This document shows positions 1-42,153 of a stretch of 50,735 bases of DNA, one piece after another. The position numbers and the translations under genes are program-made. Each line of letters opens with the position of its first letter. Positions within the stretch are counted from its first letter, which is position 1. The stretch is from Deltaproteobacteria bacterium (GTDB lineage: Bacteria; UBA10199; GCA-002796325; JACPFF01), in NCBI GenBank assembly GCA_016183065.1, contig JACPFF010000001.1, forward strand, positions 1-50,735, read 5' to 3'. Below the pieces are notes generated by a model. The model saw nothing but the letters and a program-made list of their open reading frames with translations. It had not been told where the DNA came from and ran no database searches.

Positions 1-232
1 CGAGTCCGGGCGCCCGCGAAGCGGGTGGACGAGGAAGTACCCCAGCGCGCACCGCGCGCGAGAGGGGGGGGACCCGACGGGCTTTGCCCGTTGGGGGGGC
101 AGTGGCGACGACCGAGTCCGGGCGCCCGCGAAGCGGGTGGACGAGGAAGTACCCCAGCGCGCACCGCGCGCGAGAGGGGGGGGACCCGACGGGCTTTGCC
201 CGTTGGGGGGGCGACGTGAGCCCCTGTAATAG
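1..232 (+). repeat. Hairpin-rich dispersed repeat, copy A (tandemly duplicated core)
   Basis: Two nearly identical 112-base units run from 1 to about 224. Each carries small GC-rich hairpins: CCCGC-GAA-GCGGG, GCGCGC-ACC-GCGCGC and CAACGGGC-AAA-GCCCGTTG. The block ends with GACGTGAGCCCC and TAATAG, the same terminus as the copies near 23.0, 24.5 and 41.5 kb. The left end lies outside the window, so total length is unknown. The middle G-run module is shared with copy C but replaced in copies B and D. It is non-coding here; open frames across it are a by-product of GC richness. Confidence 0.85.
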
Positions 233-22919: not shown

Positions 22920-22973
22920 AAAATACCTTAAATTTCAAGTAGTTATAAACCGTATGACGTACCCGAAGTTTTA

Positions 22974-23079
22974 CCGCTGGAGGGGGGTGTGGCGACGACC
23001 GAGTCCGGGCACCCGCGAAGCGGATGGACGAGGAAGTCCCCGGAGGCGGAGCCGCAGGGGACGTGAGCCCCTCCAATAG
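22974..23079 (+). repeat. Hairpin-rich dispersed repeat, copy B (short form)
   Basis: It shares CCGCTGGAGGGG, TGGCGACGACCGAGTCCGGG, a slightly decayed CCCGCGAAGCGG hairpin, GGACGAGGAAGTCCCC and the terminus GACGTGAGCCCCTCCAATAG with copy D. It carries the GGAGGCGGAGCC module where copies A and C have a G-run module. It lacks the far half present in C and D. It ends about 50 bases before the start of the next secreted-protein gene and so may form part of its leader. Confidence 0.85.
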
Positions 23080-23131
23080 TGGCAGCATCGCGGGCATTGA
23101 CAGCCAATCTGGTGCCTCCTATAGGCTCGGC

Positions 23132-24357: not shown

Positions 24358-24517
24358 ACAGACGCTCTCCTCGGAAACAGTGTTTCTTGGCACAACCCCT
24401 CACGGGTCGGCAAGAGCTGTCGCCACCCACATCAGCGATTGTGTCAACAGGGAAAAAATTGTACCGAGCGCTCCGGACGTCGTCAACCTCCTTTTCTCCG
24501 GAGGCCTTTTCTCTCCA

Positions 24518-24779
24518 CTATTGGAGGGGCTCACGTCGCCCCCCCAACGGGCAAAGCCCGTTGGGTCCCCCCCTCTCGCGCGCGGTGCGCGCTGGGGGAC
24601 TTCCTCGTCCACCCGCTTCGCGGGTCCCCGGACTCGGTCGTCGCCACTGCCCCCCCCAACGGCACAGCCGGGTCAAGGCCCAGCTGTACTGGGCCGCGAA
24701 GCAGAGTCGAAGACTGTGCGGAGTGTGATGGAGCCTCCCCTTCAACACCGCGGTGCGGCTGGGTCGTGGGGCCCCACGT
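24518..24779 (-). repeat. Hairpin-rich dispersed repeat, copy C (full length, inverted)
   Basis: Read on the - strand it starts ACGTGGGGCCCCAC, a perfect palindrome. It continues through ACCGCGGTG and GGCTCCATCACACTCCGCAC, then a GCCCAG/CTGGGC stem interrupted at its loop. After the GTGGCGACGACCGAGTCCGG core come the GCGCGC and CAACGGGC hairpins, and it ends GACGTGAGCCCCTCCAATAG. Both termini match copy D, so this is the reference full-length form (262 bases). It fills most of the space between the ferredoxin and nth, and holds the nth stop codon. Confidence 0.88.
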
Positions 24780-25419
24780 CCCGGCAACCGGGGCAGAGAT
24801 GGGCAATCACGCACACAGTGCAACGTGGCCGCCGGGCAATGCAGACGGCCCGGCCATGGAGGATCAGGTTCATGCTGAACGCATTCCACGAGGATTTTGG
24901 CACCACTTCCATCAGCTCGACCTCGATTTTGCCCGGGTTCGTGTATCTCGTCAGCGCCAGCAGTCCGGCCAGGCGCTTGACATGGGTATCAACCACGACC
25001 CCAGGGATGTCCCAACAGGCCCCGAGGACGACGTTGGCCGTCTTCCGGCCGACCCCCGGCAAGGTCACGAGCTCGTCCATTGTCTGCGGGACTTTGCCGT
25101 GAAAGCGATCCACGAGCGCACGACAGCAGGCGATGAGGTTGCGTCCCTTGTTTTTGAAAAACCCGGTTGAGCGAATGATCTGTTCCAACGCTGCCGGTTC
25201 CGCATTGGCCAATGCCTGCACCGTCCCGAATCGCGCAAAGAGCGGTGGCGTCACCATGTTGACCCGCGCATCCGTACATTGGGCGGAGAGGATCGTCGCC
25301 ACGAGCAACTCGAACGGGGAACGATGCCGTAAGGCGGTCTTTGTGGGGGGATAGTGTCTGTTCAGGAGCGCCGAGATTTTTTTCGCGCGCGCGCGCCGCG
25401 CTTGCATTGTTTCATCCAT
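24742..25419 (-). CDS. nth: Endonuclease III
   Basis: This DNA glycosylase/AP lyase removes oxidised pyrimidines. The 225-residue protein has SPFELLVATILSAQCTDARV, the helix-hairpin-helix LPGVGRKTANVVL with the catalytic Lys, the catalytic Asp in VVDTHVKRLAGLL, and the cluster site C-x6-C-x2-C-x5-C. Start is ATG 25419; a much longer frame upstream is a shadow of polX. The last twelve residues (DVGPHDPAAPRC) and the stop codon lie inside repeat copy C, so the natural C-terminus was probably replaced. The start overlaps the end of polX by 58 bases. Confidence 0.95.
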   Translation of the reverse strand: MDETMQARRARAKKISALLNRHYPPTKTALRHRSPFELLVATILSAQCTDARVNMVTPPLFARFGTVQALANAEPAALEQIIRSTGFFKNKGRNLIACCRALVDRFHGKVPQTMDELVTLPGVGRKTANVVLGACWDIPGVVVDTHVKRLAGLLALTRYTNPGKIEVELMEVVPKSSWNAFSMNLILHGRAVCIARRPRCTVCVIAHLCPGCRDVGPHDPAAPRC

Positions 25420-40541: not shown

Positions 40542-42104
40542 TCAGACTATCTTCACCTTGCGATGCGTAGAGGCCAAGAAACGCTCCTTTGGTGCTGTGA
40601 CGATGGTTACGTTCGTCATGCCGAGATCTTTTGCATCGCGAATATATTGTACGGCAGCGGTCTGTAATGCCCGCTGATTGACGGTTTTTTGGTATCCGCG
40701 GAGATCGATGACAATGATCACTTCTTCGGGCAACTCACACGGTTCAGATGGGGATCCGTAAAGGCCTCTGAAGAATGCCCTGTCACGGTAAGCACCAGAG
40801 AGGCGTTCTCTGATAGCCGGGAAATTGCTGGAAAATTTATCATCAAATCGGGCAAGGGAGATACGGTAGACCGACTGTCGCGAGGGCCGAAATGAGTGGA
40901 CCACCTCCATCCCATAGGCAAGAGCGATGCGGAGCGGTGCCATACAAGCGAGTCCGCGGATAACGCATTCCGGGTATAAATAGTGCATCTCATGCTGAGG
41001 TAATTGAAGCGTGAGCGGGACAGCGGCATGTTCAGCAGAGACGGTCTGCACAAAGGACAACGAAAATTGCCCCATCGTGATTGTGTCGCCCCCCGCCGGG
41101 AATGTCCGGATGTGCAGCTGATACGGCGCCTCCTCAGGCTCAACAATGGGCTCCGGAGGAGAGGGGTTCGCCACCGGTCGGGGGAGCGCCGAAAGGTCCG
41201 GATGTATCGTCACGGCCTTTTCGTGCACGGCGCCCAACACAACACCATCACCGCCGACGATCACTGCATACGCAAATCCCGCCCGTTGCAGCTCGTCCAG
41301 ACTCTCTTCCACTGCGGCACGCACGTGGGGCCCCACGCCCCAGCCGCACCGCGGCGCTGAGGGGGAGGCTCCATCACACTCCGCACAGTCTTCGACTTTG
41401 CTTCGCGGCCCAGCTGTGCTGGGCCTTGACCCGGCTTTGCCGCTGGAGGGGGCAGTGGCGACGACCGAGTCCGGGCACCCGCGAAGCGGGTGGACGAGGA
41501 AGTCCCCGGAGGCGGAGCCGGAGGGGACATGAGCCCCTCCAATAGTGTGGCTGATCAACGATGTTGCGGGCTTTTCCACGCGAAACATCACGAGATCCCG
41601 CTGGAGTAACGATGCCGAGTGCGACACCACTTGTCGCACCATTCCCCGCAGTGCTGCGACCCCTTTGCCGGTACTTTCACAATCAAAGACAAAATATGTC
41701 ATCTGATCGGGACCACGGATGGCGGTGACAATGGGCGCCCCGCTACTCGTCGAGACGACCGTTATGCGGTTGCTGGCCTGGCGGAGTCTCTCATAGAGCA
41801 CCTGACGTTCACCTTCGGGGCGCAAGGCGTTCCGTTTCAACGCGACCGCGGCAGAGTCTTCAGGCGCGAGCGCGCGCAGGACGTCGCGAATGCCCCCAGG
41901 GGAGATGTCGCGAAAACTATCCGAAAATGAACCCTTTTCAGCACGTCCGGCGATGACGAGCCGCAAGACGTCTTGTGGCAATGCCGCTCGGTCCATGGTC
42001 TGGGCGGCTGGCGGTACTGTCAGTGCCCGCTCTGCCGCTCCCCTTGCCGCTCCCGGACGGAGATGCCGTATGACTCCACCCAAGAACTGTGTCACTCGAC
42101 TCAT
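40542..42104 (-). CDS. Unknown protein carrying an in-frame insertion of the dispersed repeat
   Basis: The 520-residue open frame has an N-terminal part that looks like a globular alpha/beta domain (TVVSTSSGAPIVTAIRG, YFVFDCESTGKGVAALRGM). About 74 residues encoded entirely by repeat copy D follow. The C-terminal part holds beta-rich segments (YAVIVGGDGVVLGAVHEKAV, EEVIIVIDLRGYQKTV, MTNVTIVTAPKERFLAS). Apart from the insert it reads as one soluble protein. No stop or frameshift occurs across the insert. ATG 42104 with AAGGGA upstream is preferred to GTG 42125. I do not recognise the family. Whether the insert is tolerated or the gene is dead cannot be told. Confidence 0.65.
   Translation of the reverse strand: MSRVTQFLGGVIRHLRPGAARGAAERALTVPPAAQTMDRAALPQDVLRLVIAGRAEKGSFSDSFRDISPGGIRDVLRALAPEDSAAVALKRNALRPEGERQVLYERLRQASNRITVVSTSSGAPIVTAIRGPDQMTYFVFDCESTGKGVAALRGMVRQVVSHSASLLQRDLVMFRVEKPATSLISHTIGGAHVPSGSASGDFLVHPLRGCPDSVVATAPSSGKAGSRPSTAGPRSKVEDCAECDGASPSAPRCGWGVGPHVRAAVEESLDELQRAGFAYAVIVGGDGVVLGAVHEKAVTIHPDLSALPRPVANPSPPEPIVEPEEAPYQLHIRTFPAGGDTITMGQFSLSFVQTVSAEHAAVPLTLQLPQHEMHYLYPECVIRGLACMAPLRIALAYGMEVVHSFRPSRQSVYRISLARFDDKFSSNFPAIRERLSGAYRDRAFFRGLYGSPSEPCELPEEVIIVIDLRGYQKTVNQRALQTAAVQYIRDAKDLGMTNVTIVTAPKERFLASTHRKVKIV
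41323..41545 (+). repeat. Hairpin-rich dispersed repeat, copy D (inside a reading frame)
   Basis: It begins ACGTGGGGCCCCAC and continues through GGCTCCATCACACTCCGCAC and the perfect stem GGCCCAGC-TGT-GCTGGGCC. GCCGCTGGAGGGGGCAGTGG, the CCCGC-GAA-GCGGG hairpin and GGAGGCGGAGCC follow, and it ends GAGCCCCTCCAATAG. Both termini match copy C, but the module before the right end is the B-type, not the A/C type. At 223 bases it is not a multiple of three, so the true insertion boundaries or a small target duplication must make up the frame. The host gene is on the - strand. Confidence 0.88.
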
Positions 42105-42153
42105 CGGAAGGTCCCTTTCACTCACACTTCATATCGGCAAGACTGGGAAAACG

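Follow-up and report, generated by a model that had tools for sequence, protein, structure and literature searches.

The repeat analyzed here, one copy of which (copy D) lies inside a 520-codon reading frame, is very probably a non-autonomous mobile element that is translated within its host proteins and tolerated there in loops, resembling the Rickettsia palindromic elements (RPE) and forming a distinct family that crosses phyla. The original prediction of a mobile repeat adding peptide in frame in the manner of RPE is strongly supported for the family, whose hosts are conserved and whose segment is absent in orthologues and solved structures. The parallel with RPE holds for behavior, but nothing shows descent from RPE.

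Copy D and its reading frame

The window, which is the whole stretch of 50,735 nucleotides analyzed, contains copy D at positions 41325–41546 of the minus strand, with its CTATTGGAGGGGCTC end at 41531–41545 and its GTGGGGCCCC end (plus strand) at 41325–41334. The host reading frame spans 40542–42104 on the minus strand and comprises 520 codons plus the stop when read from ATG, or 527 codons from an alternative GTG start at 42125. That copy D lies entirely within this frame and introduces no in-frame stop, as predicted, is borne out by the open reading frame and by the count of 222 nt, and the roughly 74 added residues that had been claimed correspond to exactly 74 codons (TIGGAHVPSGSASGDFLVHPLRGCPDSVVATAPSSGKAGSRPSTAGPRSKVEDCAECDGASPSAPRCGWGVGPH), read as ACT ATT GGA ... 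CCC CAC (TIGGAHV...GVGPH). The N-terminal flank (41547–42104, minus strand, 186 codons) and the C-terminal flank (40545–41324, minus strand, 260 codons) each have a coding score of 0.27 beside the insert, calculated over 240 nt on each side of copy D in the frame running through the element; the genome mean of long ORFs is 0.35 and the off-frame value is −0.63. The two flanks had been taken for parts of one protein, and both are indeed coding in the same frame, but no relatives of the host protein were found. Orthologues were absent from 60 relatives, 46 genomes of the class and the species collection, and the empty site of copy D is for this reason not seen. Pfam gave no family above the cut-off and the PDB no significant relative; identification of the host through the weak matches to Smr (E = 0.005) or NAD kinase (E = 0.07) was rejected, and an AlphaFold single-sequence fold was uninformative, with a mean pLDDT of 36.6.

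Copy D might instead separate two unrelated neighboring genes that were fused by chance in one open frame, as would fit with the frequent position of elements between same-strand neighbors and with the fact that both flanks are seen as one protein in no orthologue. We consider such a fusion unlikely, since both flanks are coding in one frame as far as the element, no stop closes the N-terminal flank ahead of it, the C-terminal flank would require a start inside or after it, and joining in the same frame by chance has a probability of about 1 in 3 even before stops are counted. In-frame mobile insertion at copy D's own host gene is supported by two lines only, analogy with the other hosts and the coding signal of the flanks.

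The repeat family in the source genome

Three further copies of the repeat are present in the window. The copy at 22961–23091 (minus strand), spanned by no long frame, is 95% identical to copy D over 112 nt (22970–23081), and the copy at 24512–24800 (plus strand), which carries a core-type end module (CTATTGGAGGGGCTCACGTCGCCCCC...), matches copy D in inverted orientation with 90% identity over 205 nt (24595–24799). The third copy lies at the contig end (1–261, minus strand) and has an internal 112-nt tandem duplication, with 1–100 equal to 113–212; the duplication (window 1–212) is exact. In the source genome (G000; a metagenome assembly of 1.97 Mb in 30 contigs, 88.8% complete), a BLAST search with copy D returned 62 matches, and the 15-nt end motif CTATTRBAGGGGCTC was matched 133 times with at most one mismatch, compared with 0 for the reversed-pattern control. 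Iterative BLAST over 514 kb of sequence fetched around the listed copies delimited 117 element intervals of ~40–490 nt. The elements are mosaics built from short hairpin modules, with lengths from 76 nt, for the core, to over 400 nt. Terminal inverted repeats are absent, the ends CTATTRYAGGGG and GCTCGCT not being complementary by inspection of the alignments. Long flanking duplications show no excess in the source genome except at one tRNA copy, and duplications of 1–3 bp are below resolution.

RNAalifold, applied to 22 copies, predicts a pair of adjacent hairpins in which 3 of 14 base pairs show compensatory changes. Such strong structure would also suit an element that is transcribed and not translated, being either skipped by the ribosome, as for the yeast mitochondrial byp elements, or spliced out of the RNA, and bypassed palindromic elements are reported in mitochondrial genes of Magnusiomyces (PMC6649704). 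Skipping, however, does not require the element to be 3n long or its frame to be open; here the flanks share a frame, stops are absent and the codon phase is constant. Rfam covariance models at the gathering score found only tRNAs in the copies searched, with no intron or other RNA family. Taken together, we regard a transcribed but untranslated element as highly improbable.

Several loci are of note for their surroundings. The copy at L142:4521–4606 adjoins a tRNA-Leu-like 5' end and is flanked on either side by a perfect 55-nt duplication. At L189, L171, and L174 of the same-family relative G001, diverged element flanks recur on the opposite side, as with local duplication at insertion, and a repeated tRNA-like 3' end is among the recurring flanks at L189. 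Long target duplications as a general feature were set aside, being hinted at by these three loci but showing no overall excess in the source genome. Many copies in the source genome (e.g. L093, L125, L145, and L158) begin ~0–30 nt from the stop codon of the upstream gene, and some of these supply or overlap that stop codon.

In-frame hosts in the source genome

A search of the genome for further proteins containing DFLVHPLRGCPDSVVA, as the original prediction had proposed, found the peptide, slightly changed, in CarA, squalene/phytoene synthase, and orotate phosphoribosyltransferase (OPRT)-like and cupin-like proteins. Fourteen elements lie inside an open frame that is coding on both sides, one of them (before FlhA) doubtful; these cases were found by searching among open frames, which favors finding such cases. 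In CarA, for which only one full match was found, the element lies between the CPSase and GATase domains. Residues 2–176 and 194–374 of Escherichia coli CarA align by phmmer to residues 20–193 and 240–419 of the protein, and the segment therefore replaces or extends the interdomain linker. The element lies within the Pfam domain of squalene/phytoene synthase, and both this enzyme and CarA are free of the segment in G001. In the OPRT-like protein it follows the N-terminal half and precedes the phosphoribosyltransferase core, approximately at the catalytic loop. An in-frame copy is also carried by a LysM lytic transglycosylase (SLT/LysM protein), and two inserts are found in a type I FAS-like protein of at least 2319 amino acids (L153:3–6959, plus strand), a protein that here occurs in a small bacterial genome. 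The class II ribonucleotide reductase has one copy within the intein and another in the C-terminal extein, ahead of TSCPD; its frame (L090:5401–10398, plus strand) encodes 1666 amino acids with Intein_splicing and LAGLIDADG_3 matches. Frames spanning an element before FlhA (L131), TatD (L129), GCS2 (L139), OsmC (L106), and TauE (L108), as well as a 307-amino acid frame at L111, were set aside because the element precedes the domain and the gene may start after the element.

Five same-strand frame pairs flanking an out-of-frame element were compared by Pfam and proved to be different genes, namely ScpB/ClC, FMN-binding/Rnf, FtsJ/GCS2, SMC/nucleotidyltransferase, and thymidylate kinase/DNA polymerase III delta. 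In this small sample no gene is cut out of frame by an element.

The core element and its hosts in other genomes

The end motif exceeds its control in relatives of the class as well. There the core consists of CTATTAYAGGGGCTCGCGTCGCCCCCTCC, a variable hairpin around GGCAAAGCC, then GGAGCCTCCCCCTC and a second module ending in GCTCGCT, and the 76-nt core in other genomes has the same ends as the family in the source genome. A 26-base core pattern was found in 35 stretches from 16 genome records titled Deltaproteobacteria, Nitrospirae, Troglogloeales, Nitrospiria, Syntrophus, Bdellovibrionales, and Proteobacteria; these phylum labels are record titles of metagenome assemblies and some cross-phylum cases may be binning errors, but several projects are represented. 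The core is shared so closely as to suggest transfer or a common mobilizer. Phages, plasmids, and viral contigs gave no match to the repeat.

In many of these records the core lies in frame within conserved genes. In RNase R it separates the cold-shock domain from the RNB domain; the other hosts are PheT, TilS, FGGY kinases, a carotenoid biosynthesis protein, a UvrD-type helicase, RimP, CinA, an RF-1 domain protein, QueA, diacylglycerol kinase, a radical SAM protein, and UvrC. In the conserved hosts the domains before and after the insert are intact, and alignments to PDB entries place the inserts between domains or in loops. With the Bacillus subtilis QueA structure, only 2 residues of the structure stand opposite 34 of the query at the element, and the solved PheT and UvrC likewise match on either side of the element and leave a gap there. 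In genome G024 (96% complete), PheT is single copy and carries the insert. The same genome has 69 matches to the peptide SEREGEAPTALPLEGATRAPIID, of which ~30 belong to frames no shorter than 200 amino acids, and a peptide resembling SEREGEAPTALPLEGATRAPIID is what antisense copies add.

Codon phase and the state of the host genes

All 7 sense copies examined in the source genome keep to one codon phase (chance 0.0007). Outside the source genome, the 13 antisense copies with Pfam support also keep to a single phase, in which the CTATT end falls after codon position 1 (chance 0.0025, from the openness of two possible frames); these are modest figures, in which the copies are treated as independent. 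The antisense copy inside the intein is an exception and uses a different frame. Constant phase may reflect selection after insertion, target preference, or both.

A different explanation for the open frames is that the inserts mark decaying genes and that the frame stays open merely because the element is G+C-rich and poor in stops. The sense frames of elements over 100 nt are indeed mostly open regardless of location (104, 86, and 101 of 106), which makes openness weak evidence for sense copies, D among them, and the host of copy D is an orphan. The antisense frame gives a different result, being stop-free in 4 of 4 gene-internal copies in the source genome versus 16 of 108 elsewhere (Fisher p = 0.0008, again a modest figure with copies taken as independent), with a TGA present in most of the other copies and in none of the gene-internal antisense ones. 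Also weighing against decay are the normal coding scores of the flanks and the hosts themselves, which are conserved, have intact domains on both sides and in several cases are normally essential and single (PheT, and CarA with its one full match). It is accordingly a very unlikely explanation.

As we picture the preferred reading of a translated mobile element, elements made of small hairpin modules would insert at many sites, and those surviving inside genes would be the copies with suitable length, orientation, and codon phase. The ribosome would read through a surviving copy, and the protein would gain 25–100 residues, in most cases in a loop or between two domains. The segments would presumably be translated and kept in the finished protein, with the host proteins still functional, and the elements would move within lineages and from one to another, either directly or through DNA copies. 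An extended form of this reading, that of a single cross-phylum mobile family adapted to gene-internal life, with the EGATRAP segment in dozens of proteins per genome, is tentative, and we lean slightly against it. Its further proposition, that the ends and the insertion phase would keep a stop-free frame and that the peptide, harmless in loops, could thus spread through essential genes, is conceivable to the same limited degree. Constant codon phase allows filtering by selection alone to be tested against elements built for translation.

Comparison with known palindromic and mobile repeats

In-frame palindromic elements have so far been regarded as peculiar to Rickettsia, apart from a few isolated cases elsewhere. 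An early report of RPE, as related in later articles, gave insertions in 19 reading frames (Ogata et al. 2000/2002, via PMC2229807, PMC10969869), and the Rickettsia gmk product with an RPE insert is described as translated and active (PMC2229807). Like RPE, the elements described here are small dispersed hairpin repeats that are also intergenic, lie in frame in conserved genes with a conserved peptide, and are absent at the same sites in relatives. In contrast to RPE, the present family is G+C-rich and modular; its carriers are free-living bacteria of groundwater and sediment that belong to several phyla, not Rickettsia, and it uses both orientations, with one main codon phase in each. The protein-coding palindromic repeats of Wolbachia and archaea (Ogata 2005; Suyama 2005, cited in PMC3733652, PMC2229807) are likewise comparable, each reported from one lineage in the citing articles, whereas at 26 bases the present core is common to 16 genome records with several phylum labels.

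REP/BIME sequences with their RAYTs (PMC3733652) are also palindromic, of high copy number, often located by gene ends and occasionally within genes, but the present element is much longer than the 20–40 bp REP and its core is not near the RAYT-type genes inspected in relatives. Bacterial MITEs such as Correia/NEMIS, ERIC, RUP, and YPAL (PMC2229807) share with it a non-autonomous nature, a size of 70–300 bp, structure, and high copy number, and some have open frames fused to genes, as in the present family; they differ from it in the matter of terminal inverted repeats and may differ in flanking duplications, of which the source genome shows no excess. A description of the present family was not found in the literature searched, subscription journals being mostly outside that search. 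Here the behavior known from Rickettsia recurs among free-living bacteria from several phyla, with an element of different appearance and high copy number that lies within enzymes including PheT, QueA, UvrC, and CarA. Those who annotate proteins or solve structures from these lineages can expect to find the same foreign segment in many of them.

Mobilization

The mobilizing enzyme would be encoded elsewhere than in the element. A RAYT-like gene is present in the source genome, with the nearest repeat copy ~1 kb away, and Y1_Tnp occurs in 38 of 45 relatives, where no core elements lie beside the RAYT-type or Y1 genes inspected. A RAYT/Y1 transposase was rejected as the mobilizer, given that Y1 is near-universal in the class and provides no discrimination and that core elements are not adjacent to it. 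One copy in the source genome (L251:1465–1881, plus strand; G000:C8 ~65,800–66,200) lies within an IS200/IS605-type Y1 transposase, which it disrupts close to the HUH motif.
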